IMG/VR virus record: IMGVR_UViG_3300029787_000271
Location: 1-26,784 of that record
Direction: 5' to 3' (one strand)
DNA length: 26,784 bases
DNA from: a virus
Positions 2 to 26,784 of this stretch are shown one piece after another (within the stretch, counting starts at the first letter, position 1; the number at the start of each line of letters is the position of its first letter). Under the pieces are notes generated by a model. That model searched no databases. It was not told the origin of the DNA and saw only the letters and a program-made list of their open reading frames with translations. The position numbers and the translations under genes are program-made.

Positions 2-3000
2 AAAGACTTACCGAAAGAAGACCAAGAGTATTGGGATGCAGAAGCAGAAACCCGCGGTGCTACTGAAACTGGAGATGTTGAAACAGCCCCTACTGAATTA
101 GAGGCGTTAAGAAAAAGACAAGAAGAAATAACAAACATTCCCGCTGCTGAAATGACAACGGAGTTAACTGATGAGTACCAAACGAACCAAGAAGTACTTA
201 GTGAGTTAGAAACTGCCGAAAGAAAAGCGGGCGCAGAAAAATTAGGGATTGGTGCTTTTGCCGAAGTAGACAGGAAGTTAAACAGGCGACCTAAAGTAGT
301 TGCTGAGAAAGAAACTACCGATGTAAAAACCGGAACAGAAGTAGAAGCCGAACCAGAAGATAGACTCAAAACTATTGCTAAAGCAGCCGATACAGTAAAA
401 GAAGAAACGCAAGAACAAATAGAGGCAATTAGTCAGGTAGAAGAACAAGCCATAGACGACGCAGAAAAGCTGCTAAGGAAAAAAGGTTTTAGCAGCAGGA
501 AAGCTGAAGACTTCACCGATGAAGAGATTAGTACCTTTGCTATGGCAATACCTGCGTTAGAAAGAAGTAAAATGTCTACGAAAGAGAAGACTGAATATTT
601 TGAACGTATTTCTATTGACTACCAAACTGATTTTATTGCTAAAGAAGGGCGCGAGCCAACCAACGAAGAAAGAAATGAAATACTTAACCGAGTTAAAAAA
701 GAAGTAGATGCAGAACAAAAGTTAATTTCTACAAGACTAGGTAAACTAAAAAAAGCTACTAAGCCAGTACAAACTAAAATTGAAGACGAAGCCGCTGCCA
801 TTGAAGCCGCAAAAGACGAAAAGCCCATAAGGGAAAGGCTTGATACTACGACTGAGGTTAAAGAAGCAGAGGTAGGTGTACTAGAAGCTAGAGAAGAAAT
901 AGAGAAAGGTGAAGTAGAAACTTTTGAAAAAAAGATAGAAGGCCAGAAAAAACCAATAGTTACTTCTAAAAGAGAACAAGAAGAAATACAGAAATTAAAT
1001 GAAGCAATAGGCGAAGATTGGGAACAAACCCAATCTGAAGCGTATAAAGCTTTTGTAGATAGTGGCAAACAAAAAGTGGATGCTCCTAAACTACCTCCAA
1101 ACCTTAGTGACTCAGAAGCTATAACAGAACTTTTCTTAAAAGAAGGGAAACCAACCGAACAAGAACAGGATGCGATTACTTACTTAACTGCACACCCAAC
1201 CTTGGAACGTAATTTATTTGATTTAGCTTACGAAGATGCAGTAGATGCCCCTGCATACCAAGCATCAGAAGATGCTTCCGCTGCGGAAAAAGAATTTTTT
1301 GCTGGTAGGGGTGGGAAACACAGGAAAAATGCGCTTGCTTGGGTTAGAGATAACCTATCTGCCGAAGCAAATATGTGGGTGTATAACGCAACGGAAAGTC
1401 AAATTGCTAAACTTGAGCGTAATCCACCACTTAGTGCAGATTATTACGACGTAAATCAAAAACCATCTACACCGCCTTTCGGCCTTGAGAAATCTGTTAA
1501 CACGCCGCAAGTATACGATGGCTCCTTTAATGAAGCCTTAAATTTAGCTAAAACAAATAGAGTAAATACTCCTAAGTTTCTTGCGCTTTTAAAGACACTA
1601 CCCCCAGAACAACAAAAAGAAATAGCAGTTAAAATAAAACAGGATATAGAGAAAGCAAGAGAAGCAGAAACACAAAGCCTAGCATTACCCAAAGACTCTG
1701 AACTTAACCTTGATGTGCCTATGCACCCCATCGTTATGACTCAATTACGTAATGGTGATTTAGCGGGTGCGCTTCGATCTTTAGCAACCACTTCATCTAA
1801 CCCCCGTGTAAAAAGCATAGCTAAAAACCTAGCTAAAATAGTAGGTGAAACCAAACTAGAAACTTCTAAGAACTTAAAAGCTAAAGACGGTAGGGCGGCT
1901 AACGGTCTGTTTGACCCAGAGACCAATACAATAAAACTAGACGCTGATACAGGGTTAAACACGCATACTGTACTGCATGAGATGACTCACGCGGCTACTT
2001 CAGCACAGTTGGCAGATGGTAAGTCTGCGGCTGCTAAACAGCTTAAAAAGCTATTTAATGAAGTAAAAGACCAACTAGGCACTGCGTACGGTTCGCTTAC
2101 TGTAGATGAGTTTGTAGCAGAAGCTTTTGGTAACCCTACGTTCCAACGAGAGTTAGCTTCAATAACTGTCCCTAATACCTTTAAGACAGCGTGGCATAGG
2201 TTCTCAACAATAGTATCTAACATACTAAACTTCTTAACAGGTCGCCCACGTATACCACTCGCAGGTAAAGGTACTACTGTAGATGCGTTTACTGACCGAC
2301 TTACCACTGCACTGTTAGCACCAGCTCCTTCATCACGCTTCTCTGGTGAGTTATTGATGGCGTTTAAAGAAGGTAATGCTGCTAGTGCTGTAAAGAACTA
2401 TGGAAGAAACGTAGTAGAAGCAGTAAAGAGTATTGATGAAAAGGTATTATCGGACGGGGCTGGAGATTTATTAGAGAACGCTAAAAAAGCAGCCAAAGTA
2501 ATTGGCCTTGCTGCCCTTAATACTCAATCTTTAGCTGATGTATTAACAAAAACATTGGGTGTAAAAGGTGCTTATAAGGTACACCAACTAATAGAAAAAC
2601 AAGCAGGGCTGATAGATGGGGAAAACAAGTTATTAGATGGCACTGCTAAACAGATAGAAGATTTCTTAAAAGCCAACCCAGACAAAAAAGAAACTTTCGA
2701 TCAGCTTGTGGGTAAAAGCACGATAGAACAAGTCGATCCTTCCAAAACTAAAAGTGAAGCTGACGCAGCATACGATTCAGAAAAACTTGCTGTATGGAAG
2801 GGTATGCAGACGGATTGGAACTCTCTTGAAGCAGAGGGGCAAGCAGAATATGTTCGATTGAGAGATTCATATAAGCGACTGTTTGATAAACTTAAAGAAG
2901 CTTTAGCAGCTCGATTTGAAGTAATAGAGAAAGAAAACCCTAATAACGAAGCAGTTAAAGAGTTAAAAAACACACTGTATCAACGGTTGATGGAAGCGGC

Positions 3001-5542
3001 TACGATTGAACCTTACTTCCCGTTAACCCGCACAGGGGAGTACTGGATACGATATACAGCGACTCCAACTGATAGCAACGGTAATGCCATAGGGCCACCA
3101 GAAGTAACGGTAGAAGCACTTGATACAAAAGCTGCACGTACTAGACGTATACGTTATCTAAAAAGCATTAGCCCGCAAGAAGATAACGCTCAAATAGCAG
3201 ACATAAAGTTCTTTAATAATATAAGTAATATGGATTTTGATAACGTAGCTCCAACTTCTTTTGTGTCCCAAATGCTACAGGTGTTGCAGGGCGCAGGGGT
3301 AGAAAAAGATGTTCAACTACAAATAGCTAGAAACTTTATTGATGCTGTACCTGAGTCTTCTTTCCTTAAGTCTTTACATAAAAGAAAAGGAACCGCTGGA
3401 TATAACGTAGATGCTATGGATGCGTACCGACAAAAAGCTTATAGCATAGCTAGACAAGCGGTAAATATAAAAGTAACGGAAGAGTTGTACTCTACCCGCG
3501 ATGACATACGTAAAGCACTTACTAAGAAATTAGAAGCTATTGCAACACTTGAAAGCGATTTGGATGATGCAAAACGGCCCGCTGATGAAAACCGCACACC
3601 TAGTCAAAGGGCTAAAGAGATAGCGGCTATAGAAAAGCAGATGGAAGAACTAGGTGCTAACAAATACATTAGTAGTGAAAATGTAGACGCTGCGGTAGCT
3701 GAAATAAACGCTCGTATTTTACAGGCAACTTCACCCGCAGATAATTGGGTAGAAACAGTAGCGAAAACAGCAAACCGTTTAGCGTTTTTAGGTACTATCG
3801 GGTTTAGCGCAGCATCTACCATTGTCAATATGGGCCAAGTACCTATGGTGGTAGTTCCTTTCTTAGCGGGTAAAACTAATTTTACTACCGCAGGTAGAGC
3901 AGCTATGACAGGTATGAATCTGTTTGCAGGTAGTGGGCTTAGTAATAAGTTACCTGTTTTAGATAGTAATAATAAAGAAAAAGACATAGAAGTTAGAGGT
4001 ATGCCGTCTATTGATAATTACTATACGGAAGATAATGACGGTAATTTGATACTACGCGACGACATAGAAGACGTTAAAAACTACTATGCCATGCCCATAG
4101 ATGACAAAGGTAACACTAAGATGTTATCTAAAAAGGAACTCCTAACCATTCTTAAACCTTTAATAACAGAAGCGGGCGATAGATCTCTGCTTAATCGATC
4201 TCTAGCTGCGGATACGCTTGGTGTAGAACTGGCGGGTAAGAAGAGAGGAACTAAACTTAGAGAAGGATGGGATAAATTTAATTTATGGAGTGCCTTGCCT
4301 TTCCACACAGCAGAGCGCATGAACAGGCAAGTGTCTTTAGTTGGTAGTTACTTAAATGAAGTAGCTAGAATGAATATGAAGCCCAACAAAGCGAAAGGAG
4401 AAAATAATCTTACTGAGCAAGAAATATTTGAGACAGCGATAGAAACAGCTTTATATGACACACAGCAGACTAATGGTGGTGCTACATTGGCTACTTCACC
4501 TCGTATCGCGCAGAAACACATAGGCCGCGTTGCTATGATGTTTAAGACGTACGGGTTTACGATGTACTACCATCAGTTAAAGATGGCCCTGACTGCACTA
4601 CAACAAGCAAAAGAAAACGGTTTAGACGACTACACTATACGCCAAGCAAGAAGGCAGTTGGTGGCGAGTTTAGGTGCTACAGCGGTGATGTCAGGATTGC
4701 AAGGACTTACTATAGTAGGGGTGTTTGAAGGATTAGCAAATCTTTTCCTAGATGATGAAGACGAAGATGCAGAGACTTATATCCGTAAGTTTCTTGGGGA
4801 ACCCTTGTACAGCGGTGGTTTGCAGTATTTAACCATGTTTGCGGGTGATATTTTCGGGGCAGAGACAGAACTAGATATAGCCTCTCGTATAGGTCTTTCG
4901 CACCTCATATTGGGTAATAACAAATATGACTTTAATGAGTCTGCTAAAGAAGAATTTGTAAACATATTAGGTGGCCCCGCATTAAGTTACGGTTCGTCAA
5001 TCGCAAGAGGTGTAAATGATATATACAGCGGAGAGATGCAAAGAGGTATAGAAAGCATTGTACCTTCCGCCATCCGTAATGTATTAAAGACCTTTAGGTA
5101 CTCTGATTTTGACGAAGGTACGGCCCGCACTCGACGCGGCGATCCTATAGTGGATGACTTAAATCCTGCACAAATGACCGCTCAGTTCTTAGGATTTGCC
5201 CCCGCAGAATACTCCAGAGCGCAAGAGATAAACCAAGACATCAAGCGTATAGACCGAGCAGTTAACCAAAAACGTACTAAGCTGATGAAAAAATACTACG
5301 TTGCTAAACGTATGGGGGACGCAGACGGTATAAGGGAAACGGCAGAAGAAATAAGAGAGTTTAACAAACGACATAGAAACAAAGGGCCGAAGGTTAGGAT
5401 TAGCACAGAAAGCCTTATTAGATCTATGAGGATGCACGCAAAAACTTCATCCGAAATGCACAACGGTATTACGTTAAGTCCCAATATAAGAGAGTACTCT
5501 AAAGAATTAGCTAATGAATATGCTAGGTCAGGGCTTTTTTGA
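2..5542 (+). CDS. Giant polyvalent virion (ejection-type) protein with zinc metallopeptidase motif, 5' partial
   Basis: The frame is open from base 2, so the ATG at 152 is only the first Met visible and the gene starts outside the window. Counting from that Met, the first 450 residues are rich in Glu, Lys and Ala and probably helical or coiled. An HEMTH motif lies at 609-613 (bases 1976-1990), with an EFVAEAF segment about 45 residues later that could give the third zinc ligand, as in zincin domains of polyvalent phage proteins. Hydrophobic stretches occur near 1210-1250 and 1510-1540, and the segment FKTYGFTMYYHQL near 1465-1480 resembles the C-terminal part of other giant phage proteins. 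Such proteins are usually packaged in the capsid and ejected with the DNA; that role is inferred. It is the only convincing plus-strand gene and faces the minus-strand replication block. Confidence 0.75.
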   Translation, partial: KDLPKEDQEYWDAEAETRGATETGDVETAPTELEALRKRQEEITNIPAAEMTTELTDEYQTNQEVLSELETAERKAGAEKLGIGAFAEVDRKLNRRPKVVAEKETTDVKTGTEVEAEPEDRLKTIAKAADTVKEETQEQIEAISQVEEQAIDDAEKLLRKKGFSSRKAEDFTDEEISTFAMAIPALERSKMSTKEKTEYFERISIDYQTDFIAKEGREPTNEERNEILNRVKKEVDAEQKLISTRLGKLKKATKPVQTKIEDEAAAIEAAKDEKPIRERLDTTTEVKEAEVGVLEAREEIEKGEVETFEKKIEGQKKPIVTSKREQEEIQKLNEAIGEDWEQTQSEAYKAFVDSGKQKVDAPKLPPNLSDSEAITELFLKEGKPTEQEQDAITYLTAHPTLERNLFDLAYEDAVDAPAYQASEDASAAEKEFFAGRGGKHRKNALAWVRDNLSAEANMWVYNATESQIAKLERNPPLSADYYDVNQKPSTPPFGLEKSVNTPQVYDGSFNEALNLAKTNRVNTPKFLALLKTLPPEQQKEIAVKIKQDIEKAREAETQSLALPKDSELNLDVPMHPIVMTQLRNGDLAGALRSLATTSSNPRVKSIAKNLAKIVGETKLETSKNLKAKDGRAANGLFDPETNTIKLDADTGLNTHTVLHEMTHAATSAQLADGKSAAAKQLKKLFNEVKDQLGTAYGSLTVDEFVAEAFGNPTFQRELASITVPNTFKTAWHRFSTIVSNILNFLTGRPRIPLAGKGTTVDAFTDRLTTALLAPAPSSRFSGELLMAFKEGNAASAVKNYGRNVVEAVKSIDEKVLSDGAGDLLENAKKAAKVIGLAALNTQSLADVLTKTLGVKGAYKVHQLIEKQAGLIDGENKLLDGTAKQIEDFLKANPDKKETFDQLVGKSTIEQVDPSKTKSEADAAYDSEKLAVWKGMQTDWNSLEAEGQAEYVRLRDSYKRLFDKLKEALAARFEVIEKENPNNEAVKELKNTLYQRLMEAATIEPYFPLTRTGEYWIRYTATPTDSNGNAIGPPEVTVEALDTKAARTRRIRYLKSISPQEDNAQIADIKFFNNISNMDFDNVAPTSFVSQMLQVLQGAGVEKDVQLQIARNFIDAVPESSFLKSLHKRKGTAGYNVDAMDAYRQKAYSIARQAVNIKVTEELYSTRDDIRKALTKKLEAIATLESDLDDAKRPADENRTPSQRAKEIAAIEKQMEELGANKYISSENVDAAVAEINARILQATSPADNWVETVAKTANRLAFLGTIGFSAASTIVNMGQVPMVVVPFLAGKTNFTTAGRAAMTGMNLFAGSGLSNKLPVLDSNNKEKDIEVRGMPSIDNYYTEDNDGNLILRDDIEDVKNYYAMPIDDKGNTKMLSKKELLTILKPLITEAGDRSLLNRSLAADTLGVELAGKKRGTKLREGWDKFNLWSALPFHTAERMNRQVSLVGSYLNEVARMNMKPNKAKGENNLTEQEIFETAIETALYDTQQTNGGATLATSPRIAQKHIGRVAMMFKTYGFTMYYHQLKMALTALQQAKENGLDDYTIRQARRQLVASLGATAVMSGLQGLTIVGVFEGLANLFLDDEDEDAETYIRKFLGEPLYSGGLQYLTMFAGDIFGAETELDIASRIGLSHLILGNNKYDFNESAKEEFVNILGGPALSYGSSIARGVNDIYSGEMQRGIESIVPSAIRNVLKTFRYSDFDEGTARTRRGDPIVDDLNPAQMTAQFLGFAPAEYSRAQEINQDIKRIDRAVNQKRTKLMKKYYVAKRMGDADGIRETAEEIREFNKRHRNKGPKVRISTESLIRSMRMHAKTSSEMHNGITLSPNIREYSKELANEYARSGLF

Positions 5543-15776: not shown

Positions 15777-15959
15777 CTATTTCTTTTCGTGGTTGTTAAC
15801 AACCAAGTAGTGTGTCTTAGCAAAGAATTTACGAGACCTAGTTAAGTTCCTCAGTTGAGAGACTGTAGTATCTACCTGTTCAATCTCCCCACCCTTCCTC
15901 AAGAACTCTGCCACTTGGTCGTCTAGTTCTTTACTTTGTTCCTGTTTTGTCTTACTCAT
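15777..15959 (-). CDS. Small phage protein, 60 aa
   Basis: The ATG at 15959 (MSKTKQEQ) has TTGAGG nine bases upstream, so it is preferred to the in-frame TTG at 15974, which is part of that same site. The product has a charged helix with AEFLRKGGEIEQV, a pattern found in small conserved phage proteins, then a basic C-terminus (LRNLTRSRKFF). Function unknown. Its Shine-Dalgarno is made from the last words of the pentanucleotide array, so the array forms its leader. It ends 35 bases before the polymerase start. Confidence 0.6.
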   Translation of the reverse strand: MSKTKQEQSKELDDQVAEFLRKGGEIEQVDTTVSQLRNLTRSRKFFAKTHYLVVNNHEKK

Positions 15960-15968
15960 TTTTAATAA

Positions 15969-16361
15969 CCTCAACGTACCTTACCGAAACTCACCTAACG
16001 AAAACTCAACTCAACACGATACACCACACCTGCCAAACCACACACCGCCTTGACCCGCCGCAATCCACCTGAACCGAACCCACCAAACCTGCCAAACCTC
16101 GTCATACCACAACCTTAACTAAACCGACCTAGCCTCGCCTCACCATACCTGCCACACCGAAACGGAACTAAACGTAACACAACACGCCTAACACCAACGC
16201 ACCTTACCTGCCAAATCATGCCCCAGCCTAACCCACCAAAACCTTACAAATCCAAACCGACCTGACCACACCTGCCTTACCTTACCTAACCGCAACCGAA
16301 CCCAACGTACCGGAACTCGCCTTATCACACCTGCCAAACCAAACCGCATCCAGACCAAGCC
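15969..16361 (-). repeat. Pentanucleotide array: GKYNN words punctuated by six GGCA words
   Basis: Read on the minus strand, all 393 bases divide into 5-nt words of pattern G-[G/T]-[T/C]-N-N, apart from two 6-nt words and six GGCA words. By hand count there are 73 words: 68 begin with G, 68 have G or T second, 71 have T or C third, and all 16 dinucleotides occur in the last two positions. The GGCA words lie at 16332-16335, 16273-16276, 16209-16212, 16150-16153, 16090-16093 and 16031-16034. They are 59, 64, 59, 60 and 59 apart: 4 + 11x5, 4 + 12x5, and one 60 from a single 6-nt word. GGCA is usually followed by GGTGT or similar and preceded by GGTTT. Middle words differ between units. No frame is coding. 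It begins right after the stop of the 166-residue gene and runs into the ribosome site of the 60-residue gene. Confidence 0.9.
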
Positions 16362-16364
16362 AAT

Positions 16365-16865
16365 TTATTTTTTAAGAAACAAACTGATTGGTTCCAAGAC
16401 ATCCGATAACTCAGACAAGGCTTTGTATTTATGTGTAAATGCCTCAAGCTCTTTCTTGGCGTTGTCAACTAACTGTTGTCTACCTTCAGGATCTTTCAAC
16501 ATATCAAACGTGTTAAGCCAGATTCTTTGGGGCTTGCCGCCGCACTCAATCTTTGCTCGTTGAAACAAACGAATCTCTGTAGGTTCAATCTGATCCTCGT
16601 TTAACTTCTCAGTTACCACTACTAAAGACCTTTTGATTTTTTTCTCTGTTATCAATCGGAATTTACTACCCGCTATTTCGTCGTTCCATTCAAAGTCATT
16701 ATGCAAAACAGACTTTGGGCTGCGAGCGTGTTCTACTAAAGAACCATCGGGGGCATAACCCCCGTGGCGTTTATTCAGAGCCTCTATTTCCTTTAGAGCA
16801 GCGTTCGCATCTGCCTTGAAAAAAGACCCCTTTCTCCATTTGACTTCGGTGTAAACAGGTTTCAT
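16365..16865 (-). CDS. Conserved phage hypothetical protein, 166 aa, partner of the RAMP-like protein
   Basis: ATG at 16865 overlaps the stop of the 215-residue gene (ATGA), so the two are co-translated. The N-terminal segment (WRKGSFFKADANAALKEIEAL) is followed by SLVEHARSPKSVLHNDFEW (42-60) and IAGSKFR, which I recognise as a conserved phage and prophage family without known role. The C-terminal half is helical and charged, ending FLKK. The pentanucleotide array begins three bases after its stop codon. Coupling and adjacency suggest that this protein, its upstream partner and the array act together; no catalytic residues can be assigned. Confidence 0.7.
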   Translation of the reverse strand: MKPVYTEVKWRKGSFFKADANAALKEIEALNKRHGGYAPDGSLVEHARSPKSVLHNDFEWNDEIAGSKFRLITEKKIKRSLVVVTEKLNEDQIEPTEIRLFQRAKIECGGKPQRIWLNTFDMLKDPEGRQQLVDNAKKELEAFTHKYKALSELSDVLEPISLFLKK

Positions 16866-17509
16866 GCTGCTGCTTCCGATTCAAAGTCTATGGAGGTTTC
16901 CTTCAGTTCAATTTGATGCTTGAACTCCCTGTCAACCTCGAACCGACCATACTCTCCACCCTTTTCTGGACGCATCTCACCTAGTCCAACACCAAACCCA
17001 GCACGTTGAACTAAGCTCAGTATGGTATTTAAAGTAAGAGATTGAGAATCAAACTCTATGCGAACAATCATCGACCAGTTACGAAATTCAGGGCGATAAC
17101 GTAAGTCAGTAGAACCCATGCCTACCTTAACTATGTCTTGTCGCATCAAAGGTTCATCTGATTCAAAGGCACACAGATTGTTAACCGTGTCATCAGGGAG
17201 TATGAACAAAGACTTCTTTAACAAAGTTTTTTCTAGTCCAATGTCTTTGTGAGCAGCATTTATCATACATTTTTTTAACCCGCCTGATGGAAACCCAAAG
17301 CGTCCATCCTCACAAACGTAAGCAGCATCCTTAAACTCTTGTTCAGGAACTCTAACGTCACGGTTTTTGACTTTCACCCCTGCGTGTTTGTCTTCCATCA
17401 TCTTTATTGCTTTCTCACTCCACTTGTGTTCGATCAAAGCAGAGATCCCCTTAATGCGCGTGGTCAAAATTGACTGTTGCATCTCTTCAAGTTGTATTAC
17501 GTTACTCAT
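16862..17509 (-). CDS. Conserved phage protein with RAMP/Cas7-like features, 215 aa
   Basis: Seen: GISALIEHKWSEKA (21-34); DGRFGFPSGGLKKCMINAA (68-86), resembling the FP-x-x-x-x-K segment before the main helix in Cas7-type proteins; RYRPEF (137-142); and a Gly-rich C-terminal loop GFGVGLGEMRPEKGGEYGRF (171-190). The last closely recalls the G-loop by which RAMP proteins (Cas5, Cas6, Cas7) bind RNA. Known: it belongs to a phage family usually left as hypothetical. Inferred: a RAMP fold and an RNA- or ssDNA-binding role. No Cas genes are nearby. It overlaps the 166-residue gene, and the array follows. It could also be a ssDNA-annealing protein or an unrelated beta-rich fold. Confidence 0.6.
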   Translation of the reverse strand: MSNVIQLEEMQQSILTTRIKGISALIEHKWSEKAIKMMEDKHAGVKVKNRDVRVPEQEFKDAAYVCEDGRFGFPSGGLKKCMINAAHKDIGLEKTLLKKSLFILPDDTVNNLCAFESDEPLMRQDIVKVGMGSTDLRYRPEFRNWSMIVRIEFDSQSLTLNTILSLVQRAGFGVGLGEMRPEKGGEYGRFEVDREFKHQIELKETSIDFESEAAA

Positions 17510-23847: not shown

Positions 23848-24831
23848 TTAAATGTCTAGTGATGGCAAAGAATTAAGTACGTCATTCAGTGCCTGTTTTG
23901 TTTGTGTTCTTACACCTTCATTGTGCTTAAGCATATCCGCATTGATCCCACGGTCAGTTATCGCTTCACGTAACTTCTTATGGGCAACTTGCATATCCGC
24001 ATTACCGTCGAAGTTGAACCGTTCAAGCACCTTTATCATGCGCTCTACGTGTTCAACTGCTGAGTTTTGGAATTGATTCCTATCGGGGTTGTTCTTGTAC
24101 CCTCCCGAAAAGTCTAGCTTCTTAGCCAAGTGTTCTATGTGTTTAATAGTTTCTTCCCACACCCCTCTCGTAAACTTATTAAACCGCTCTCGCTGTTGTC
24201 TATCTATGTAGCTGGTCGCTACATCAACACCTTCTTGAGCTATCCTAGTGATGAAGTTATCGTCGACTACATCTATCTCGAAGTCGATATAGAACTTAGC
24301 TATCATCTCCTCCTTTGTTTTTGGATAGTCGTCCGGGTTGAACAGCCCACCACGTAACGCCTGATCTGCGACCACCGCATCGTCGTAACCATTTGCGAAT
24401 GGCCCATGAAGACAATCTAACTGCTGTTGTTTAAAACCACTTATTGTCTCGACATACTCGTTAAGGTCTGTTGATGGGATCACGAACCCACCACGTTTTG
24501 ACCAAGGATAAGCTAACCTAGCGTGCGTGTTCCTAGCTTGACCTCTAAGAAACAACACCTTATCTAGTGGCTTCCATCCCACCAAGATCCTCTTGAGATA
24601 ACTGTCGTTCTTGACCGACTCGGAAGAAACAGCGTTAATGCCTTGAACTTGTGCTTTGGCTTTCGTGTCTTTCACTGTAAGTGTAGGTTCACCACAATGT
24701 AGCTGAACCATTGCCATGCTCGATTGAATCGATGGTACATAAGCATCAGGGATCTCGATGCTTGAGGGTTGGTGAATATCCGAAAAGCTCGGATAGTTAT
24801 TTGTCGTATTTTCTTGTGTATTTACACTCAT
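23848..24831 (-). CDS. Conserved phage protein of the MoxR-VWA module, DUF3150-like
   Basis: 327 residues. After a low-complexity start come RLAYPWSKRGGFVIPSTDL (about 105-123), then helical segments, GGLFNPDDYPKTKEEMIAKF (about 160-180) and a long helical C-terminus. This pattern (a GG-x-VIP segment, then a DYP motif, then F-x-F) resembles phage proteins next to MoxR/VWA pairs and recalls DUF3150; the match is from memory and uncertain. It may be the adaptor or client of the ATPase. Its first codons contain the operator-like palindrome and repeat the start of the 73-residue gene. AGGA is found eight bases upstream of the ATG. Confidence 0.6.
   Translation of the reverse strand: MSVNTQENTTNNYPSFSDIHQPSSIEIPDAYVPSIQSSMAMVQLHCGEPTLTVKDTKAKAQVQGINAVSSESVKNDSYLKRILVGWKPLDKVLFLRGQARNTHARLAYPWSKRGGFVIPSTDLNEYVETISGFKQQQLDCLHGPFANGYDDAVVADQALRGGLFNPDDYPKTKEEMIAKFYIDFEIDVVDDNFITRIAQEGVDVATSYIDRQQRERFNKFTRGVWEETIKHIEHLAKKLDFSGGYKNNPDRNQFQNSAVEHVERMIKVLERFNFDGNADMQVAHKKLREAITDRGINADMLKHNEGVRTQTKQALNDVLNSLPSLDI
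24816..24827. promoter_or_regulatory. Operator-like palindrome inside a gene start, site 3
   Basis: GTGTA-TT-TACAC lies within codons 2-5 of the 327-residue gene, in the same register as site 2. The surrounding 24 bases differ from site 2 at one base. Confidence 0.45.
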
Positions 24832-25270: not shown

Positions 25271-25659
25271 GTAATTGTAAGTAATGTAATGTTCTGTAAT
25301 GTTCTATATTGTTCTGTTGTGTAGGTGGGTAAGTACTTGATAAATAAGTAATGTTCTAATGTTCGGTAAATGGACGAAATTGTGAGGGGGTGTGAATGTG
25401 CGAAAGAAGAGAGCGAACATTCTTTTTCTTTTAGAAACTCAGAATGTTTTCATTGTATATAGACCCCTAACCGAACATTATAAAAATATAAATATATATA
25501 TATATATATAAATAAATAATACTAATACTTACCATTACTTACAATTACTTACCACGTTTGTAATGTTCGTTTTTGCCTCTTTGAAACCGAACATTAGCGG
25601 AACATTGCATACCTTTTACCGAACATTGCGCGTCAGGCGGGGCTTTCCAGCCGAACATT
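25271..25659. other. Candidate replication origin: 11 iterons, TA tract and flanking inverted repeat
   Basis: AATGTTC or its complement GAACATT occurs 11 times exactly. AATGTTC begins at 25288, 25298, 25350, 25358 and 25562; GAACATT at 25415, 25473, 25589, 25600, 25621 and 25653. Several extend to CCGAACATTA. In the middle are a (TA) tract (about 25493-25510) and three tandem 10-bp repeats of TACTTACNAN (25526-25555). A 16-bp inverted repeat, GTAATTGTAAGTAATG (25271-25286) and its complement (25533-25548), flanks the AT-rich part. Iterons beside an AT-rich unwinding tract are typical of origins. No gene fits here. Confidence 0.55.
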
Positions 25660-26101: not shown

Positions 26102-26784
26102 TTAGCTGAAGTCACAATCTACATCGTCGTCTGACTCTACATCGTCGTCTGACTCTACATCGTCGGCATCTGAACCATCCGCTTCCGCCCATTGTTCCGG
26201 CGTTCCGCCTACCGCTATGAATAGCTGTTCAAGTATGCGCCCCACTTCAATCATATCGACATTGTCGGGTATGACTTCAAATGCGGTTAGATCGTTGCGC
26301 GTTGCCAGTGCAATTTCGACCATCGATTTGATCTCAACCTCTGGCTCTGGCTTTTCAACCTCTGGCTTAAAACCTCTTATGAACATCTGAACGATTTGGT
26401 TCACGTTTTTCCGATGCCCCTCGATAGTCGATTTGACGTTGTCGCCATATACGCTACCGATCTTCTTAGGAGTCATTTTGTAAATCTTATTGAACTCGGT
26501 AACCAATGGCTCATCGTTCTTAAGCTTTACATCGGATCTTTCCGCCTGTCCTCTATGCAATGGCTTAATCAGTTTATTTCTGACCGTGTCATGCGTTTTC
26601 TTCTCAACCTCGGTCATATGTTCCTTGACCGCTGGCGGAAGTTTCGTCATAGACGTGTAGAGTAGGTCGCCGTCAAGTTCGCCATCTGTTGTAAAGAATT
26701 GGCGTATCGCTTCTTTCCAATCTTCGAGATCCTTAGATGCGGTCTCTTGTGATTGTCCGACTATTAAGCCTGACGCGGTAACCG
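26102..26784 (-). CDS. Hypothetical protein with acidic repeat tail, 5' partial at the window edge
   Basis: The frame stays open from the first visible Met (26650) to the right edge, and the extra 44 residues (SQETASKDLEDWKEAIRQFF ... DLLYTSM) read like protein, so the true start lies outside. The body is helical and mixed-charge (VKEHMTEVEKKTHDTVRNK, KNVNQIVQMFIRGF). The end is strongly acidic, with VESDDD repeated. Acidic tails are seen in SSBs, scaffold proteins and DNA mimics; none of these is specifically supported. Family not recognised. Confidence 0.6.
   Translation of the reverse strand, partial: VTASGLIVGQSQETASKDLEDWKEAIRQFFTTDGELDGDLLYTSMTKLPPAVKEHMTEVEKKTHDTVRNKLIKPLHRGQAERSDVKLKNDEPLVTEFNKIYKMTPKKIGSVYGDNVKSTIEGHRKNVNQIVQMFIRGFKPEVEKPEPEVEIKSMVEIALATRNDLTAFEVIPDNVDMIEVGRILEQLFIAVGGTPEQWAEADGSDADDVESDDDVESDDDVDCDFS
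26119..26166. repeat. 18-bp tandem repeat encoding the acidic tail
   Basis: CTACATCGTCGTCTGACT occurs at 26119-26136 and 26137-26154, with a partial third copy to 26166. The 18-bp period keeps frame and encodes the DDVESD repeats of the gene above, consistent with recent slippage or unequal exchange. Confidence 0.75.

Follow-up and report, generated by a model that had tools for sequence, protein, structure and literature searches.

A continuous array of GKYNN words beside a phage vipr homologue is very probably the guide store of a VIPR system

Introduction

Phage-encoded, RNA-guided recognition of DNA from a compact array is known from TIGR-Tas systems, whose protein fold differs from that of VIPR and whose spacers are contiguous. 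VIPR itself, known in the literature we searched from a single April 2026 preprint (bioRxiv 2026.04.26.720920, PMC13142463), comprises an ancestral, single-domain RAMP protein, Vipr, and vrRNAs made of YNNGG repeats. In that preprint's account, GGY stays unpaired and holds the register while the NN pairs recognise double-stranded DNA with one skipped base, and the resulting complex represses its targets and acts between phages. The preprint distinguishes seven types, mentions "staggered arrays with overlapping vrRNAs" for some of them, proposes VIPR as an ancestor of CRISPR, and cites the established behavior of RAMPs, which assemble side by side along a guide RNA and interrupt its pairing at a fixed period.

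Here we analyze a stretch of 26,784 nucleotides (the window), a virus record of IMG/VR that carries phage replication genes and in which an array of pentanucleotide words had been picked out from the raw sequence without knowledge of VIPR. That sequence-only reading knew of no described element of this form, a statement overtaken by the VIPR preprint (PMC13142463).

Results

On the minus strand, from 16362 to 15968, automatic segmentation resolves 72 words of the form G-[G/T]-[C/T]-N-N (GKYNN), with G first in 67/72, G or T second in 66/72, C or T third in 71/72 and all 16 dinucleotides at NN. The sequence-only reading had counted 68 of 73 words with G first and 71 of 73 with C or T third between 15969 and 16361, and both the array and its limits, which lie within a few bases of those set by an HMM (15968–16362), are borne out. 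The autocorrelation at lag 5 that it had proposed as a check is far above the controls, with an identity of 0.503 against 0.324 ± 0.023 (maximum 0.394) in 500 dinucleotide-preserving shuffles. Under the word model the array scores 63.5 against −85.6 ± 9.9 in dinucleotide shuffles (z = 15), and by BIC the best period is 5, ahead of all others from 2 to 12. As a positive control, the same word model recovers the four published vrRNA tracts of SUSP1, one before vipr and three after it.

Embedded in the array are six 4-nt GGCA words, spaced 59–64 nt or 12–13 words apart, each of which shifts the word phase by −1, whereby the array is divided into units. These boundary words lie at 16332–16335, 16273–16276, 16209–16212, 16150–16153, 16090–16093 and 16031–16034, their first bases on the minus strand being 16335, 16276, 16212, 16153, 16093 and 16034, respectively. 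They delimit a short 5′ segment, U0 (16336–16365), and the putative guide units U1 (16277–16331, 11 words), U2 (16213–16272, 12 words), U3 (16154–16208, 11 words), U4 (16094–16149, 11 words, one of them of 6 nt), U5 (16035–16089, 11 words) and U6 (15971–16030, 12 words, without a terminal GGCA), all on the minus strand. Near-identical repeats of about 20–50 nt with unique spacers, as in CRISPR, are absent, there being only the 5-nt lattice and the short GGCA words, and the earlier judgement that the array is neither a microsatellite nor a CRISPR holds. The accompanying argument that period 5 excludes coding is too strong as a general rule, although the array is indeed non-coding, judging by its phase shifts and the function found. 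Rfam covariance models gave 0 matches in 12 sources at the gathering score, and BLAST of the window against INPHARED returned no match and no near relative.

Two genes precede the array, the order on the minus strand being vipr, partner, array. The vipr gene (16862–17509, minus strand) encodes a single-domain RAMP protein of 215 aa, the family profile of which matches PDB 36pp_D ("SUSP1 Vipr protein") with E = 2.8e-15 and, by hhalign, the SUSP1 vipr gene with E = 1.5e-16; both match phrog_4652. Foldseek pairs an AF2 model of the window Vipr (pLDDT 93.6) with Csm and further RAMP subunits of CRISPR systems at a probability of 1.00, and the model's top 50 PDB matches are all CRISPR RAMP subunits, mostly Csm. 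The partner gene (16365–16865, minus strand) encodes a protein of 166 aa (phrog_15946) that yields a confident model, yet no fold match in the PDB. Pfam, NCBIfam and PADLOC hold no model for Vipr nor, where tested, for the partner.

Both genes are tightly linked to arrays of this kind. When ORFs were clustered around 196 arrays in 177 loci, the arrays having been picked by DNA pattern alone, two families were found next to arrays, always on the same strand: one of ~232 aa, present in 103 loci and adjacent to the array in 102, and one of ~166 aa, present in 75 loci and adjacent in all of them. By profile search, Vipr occurs in 147/177 array loci and the partner in 136/177, against 2/141 and 1/141, respectively, among control loci, which in those cases later proved to bear arrays. 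Neither family was detected in 25/177 array loci, in most of which the array lies near the locus end. In six loci (L127, L136, L328, L347, L364 and L407) the array is more than 1.2 kb from the locus end and neither vipr nor partner was found by profile; these are possibly solitary arrays or carry a divergent Vipr. Given its linkage to arrays, the gene at 16365–16865 is a probable VIPR accessory (vap) gene.

The window locus resembles the type II VIPR of SUSP1 (PMC13142463, PDB 36pp) in its Vipr homologue, in the second small gene of the operon, in tandem GGY/NN tracts that are intergenic and beside vipr, and in the 1-nt skip in the target. It differs in that SUSP1 has four separate tracts, each then followed by a structured tail, whereas the units of the window are continuous and parted only by GGCA; the invariable 3′ tail after each tract, a feature of the SUSP1-clade type II, is absent at the window. 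SUSP1 moreover uses GGYNN words, compared with the looser GKYNN of the window, and its vap1 belongs to phrog_5926, to which the window partner is unrelated (hhalign probability 0.1, different PHROGs). By these sequence features, that is, no tail between units and a different accessory gene, the window system is a VIPR of other than the SUSP1 type.

Closer in layout are Gordonia phage UmaThurman, Mycobacterium phage Donkeykong and Cyanophage Cy-LDV1, which carry continuous GGCA-bounded arrays next to vipr that are not annotated as VIPR, and which are otherwise unrelated at the DNA level. UmaThurman gp41 and Donkeykong gp50 are homologous to the window partner (phrog_15946). These three differ from the window in using mostly GGCNN words and in that the array may stand before or after the partner. 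The annotated hypothetical proteins UmaThurman gp40 (L457 4628–4951) and Donkeykong gp48 (L458 3483–3869) coincide with VIPR arrays and are probably non-genes. Class 1 CRISPR shares with the window the RAMP fold of its subunits (Csm, Cas7); the window, however, has no CRISPR repeats or cas operon, and its guide is noncontiguous with period 5.

The sequence-only reading had also called for a search of phage genomes for such arrays, and they prove to be widespread. When IMG/VR was scanned for a DNA pattern in which 11 words surround a single GGCR, at least 120 matches came up, where about 5 would be expected by a rough count that assumes ~6e10 bases, both strands and even base composition. A stricter pattern gave many matches in bacterial genomes too, counted as at least the matches listed, although many single bacterial matches in GC-rich actinobacteria are not arrays. 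Among the IMG/VR matches listed, word segmentation gives array lengths of ~100–2460 nt, and the arrays share a common grammar with differing flavors (GGC, GGT, GTT or GTC words). Among the same matches, 4-nt words number 871 compared with 30 6-nt words, are nearly all GGCA (553) or GGCG (155), and have a spacing that peaks at 10–12 words. One very long array, at L193 2037–4495, spans 2.46 kb with 501 words, 43 of them of 4 nt.

To search for targets, 1071 distinct guide units of the GKYNN/GGCR type, taken between boundaries among the matches listed, were used as queries against both strands of ~3.7 Mb of fetched DNA in which arrays had been masked, with 0–3 skipped bases allowed. An excess was found at skip 1 only, skips 0, 2 and 3 being at chance. 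At skip 1 and a score of at least 14, 14 guides matched, compared with 2.67 ± 1.49 for shuffled guides (no more than 7 in any of 30 shuffles) and with 4 when the word order was reversed; at a score of at least 16 there were 9 against 0.67 shuffled. Pooled over this array type, the NN thus decode to DNA with one base skipped. Guides from four arrays, of which L158 and L199 share theirs, target a Sak4-like annealing gene (L160:421-1191). Further targets are polA (L061) and, in other phages, vipr genes, with a guide of L335 covering the vipr start codon in L332; since vipr loci are over-represented in the data set, the proportion of targets that are vipr cannot be read as a rate. In these identified genes it is the third codon position that is skipped. 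When the longest open frame is counted instead, the skip is at position 3 in 7 same-strand and 3 opposite-strand matches, and 6 matches lie in the opposite frame with shared codon boundaries, a less clean picture, as GC-rich DNA often contains long antisense frames.

The same matches locate the ends of the guides. NN past the flanking GGCR match the target at chance (20/90, 26/90, 21/72 and 24/72), and among the matches listed the anchor motif is near the 3′ end in 124/156 complete arrays, often with GGCAGG, GGCGGT or GGCAGT as the very end; guide length peaks at 9–10 words and is mostly 7–14. Since matching stops at GGCR and most arrays end in the anchor, GGCR ends each guide. On the simplest view it forms the 3′ terminus of a unit, and the GGY/GTY after it also belongs to the guide that follows. 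This head-to-tail layout may correspond to the one called "staggered" in PMC13142463.

The sequence-only reading had named absence of arrays from the equivalent locus in all relatives as fatal to it; one relative, L156, has an array at the same place. L156 is 84–88% identical to the window across most of the shared region, with 90% identity for Vipr and 98% for the partner. In its array, U0 and U2 are letter-identical to those of the window and U5 is a diverged copy, while the other units have been replaced; whole GGCR-bounded units have evidently been exchanged between these relatives. For comparing substitutions at NN, homologous guide pairs numbered eight.

Five of the window guides (U1, U2, U3, U5 and U6) were scanned against IMG/VR by exact 8-word matches. 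For U1, U3, U5 and U6 this gave matches whose remaining words fit at chance, whereas U2 matched nine contigs, including four (L418, L419, L421 and L426) that form one lineage syntenic with the window. L426 is 61% identical to the window in polA, 55% in the AAA ATPase and 70% in the resolvase, and among the 62 loci fetched by the guide scans only these four have at least two window genes. The candidate site is found close to the end of the gene orthologous to window gene 23848–24831 and fits at 16/16 and then 3–4/8 positions, compared with a best fit of U2 of 17/24 to the window itself and 16/24 to L156. In this gene, which is on the other strand, the skipped base is the first of its codon, so that the wobble rule is not followed here. 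On balance, we consider that the U2 site is rather likely to be a real target. The matched lineage has its own VIPR array of GGCG flavor; arrays with GGCG boundaries lie at L421 8760–9506 and L426 3285–3903, and some of their guides are shared with L155. No good match to the window was found for the guides of this lineage.

Several other features of the window may be recorded. Right after the array, the ORF at 15777–15974 (minus strand, 65 aa) matches the Pfam SutA RNA-polymerase-binding domain (E = 3.2e-13), and the phage may therefore carry a small RNAP-binding protein. A polyvalent protein of 1796 aa with an LPD39 domain and DarB-like similarity is encoded at 152–5542 (plus strand), on the strand opposite to the other identified genes. 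One AT-rich intergenic stretch (25288–25659) holds 11 copies of GAACATT, counting both strands, the whole window having 12 against 3.97 expected; similar runs of GAACATT/TGTAATGTTC occur in L021 2300–2720 and L051 1860–2100, and the cluster is possibly an origin or operator region. A perfect 18-bp tandem repeat of 2.7 copies (26118–26165) lies within the ORF 26102–26650.

Discussion

We propose that the stretch at 15968–16362 is, very probably, the vrRNA array of a VIPR system, a reading that draws on the homology of its Vipr to PDB 36pp, on the match to the Csm/Cas7 RAMP fold, on the linkage of arrays to vipr, on the skip-1 targets and GGCR boundaries in the pooled data, on the recovery of the SUSP1 tracts by the word model and on the exchange of units with L156. 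Vipr subunits, as single-domain RAMPs of the Cas7/Csm kind, would line up on the RNA, hold GKY and present NN; the NN pairs of a unit, with one base skipped between them (NNxNNx...), would recognise the DNA of a rival phage, which would thereby be silenced. Guides would be packed head to tail, each ending in GGCA (or GGCG), with the GGY/GTY after GGCR doubling as the first word of the next guide. Transcription of the array, RNP assembly, double-stranded DNA binding and repression would proceed as described in PMC13142463, from which they are carried over by analogy. The sequence-only reading, with its fixed three-base frame, free two-base payload and register for a protein, agrees with a RAMP protein reading a tract of guide RNA in which NN is the payload; what it overlooked were the GGCA unit boundaries and the vipr gene two genes away.

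A variant of the VIPR reading would have guides overlap and cross the 4-nt words instead of being bounded by GGCR. PMC13142463 does mention staggered arrays with overlapping vrRNAs, and a transcript may span an anchor; nevertheless, target matching that drops to chance past the anchors on both sides, the GGCR motif near the 3′ end of most complete arrays listed and the exchange of whole units between relatives make this unlikely. Far less probable still is that the array is a degenerate pentanucleotide satellite, spread by slippage and without any guide function. Pure period-5 microsatellites are indeed present among the matches of a scan without the 4-nt word, but a satellite accounts poorly for GKY being held while NN is free, for phase changes that among the matches listed are almost all −1 and at GGCR, for the linkage to vipr, and for decoded NN that find targets only at skip 1.

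The position of the array between replication genes and upstream of polA could perceivably point to a site acting at the DNA level (an origin, primase or recombination sites, a G-quadruplex), or else the array might be an RNA sponge for a host protein. Arrays, however, track vipr and not replication genes, for among 80 fetched relatives of polA an array was present in one (L024) and in none of the other 79, many of them short contigs, and arrays also occur elsewhere, such as beside tail genes in Gordonia phage ODay; we thus attach hardly any weight to either possibility. Period-5 signals in the polA relatives L051, L037, L019 and L054 are not arrays of the GKYNN/GGCR kind. A primase-site array, a Rho site, a TRAP-like site, a G-quadruplex and a satellite were all dropped because the linkage to vipr and the skip-1 targets made them unnecessary.

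The VIPR reading leaves room for different origins of the units. The replacement of whole GGCR-bounded units between phages that are 84–88% identical elsewhere could suggest that arrays of this type are supplied with new guide units by a dedicated writing process, a memory-like form of adaptation, which we regard as doubtful. No writer gene was seen at the window locus, and a guide cannot have been simply copied from its target, since one target base in three is left out and GGY put in. Recombination among arrays together with point selection would explain the exchange of units more simply.

Taken together, VIPR is striking, young and already described, and to it the present analysis contributes an independent test of the 1-nt skip, made on a type of array that differs from that of SUSP1, a simple rule for guide ends (GGCR) and the turnover of units between close relatives. 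How new noncontiguous guides originate is the question that these findings raise. Finally, U2 adds a candidate case of a phage guide aimed at a syntenic rival that has a VIPR system of its own.
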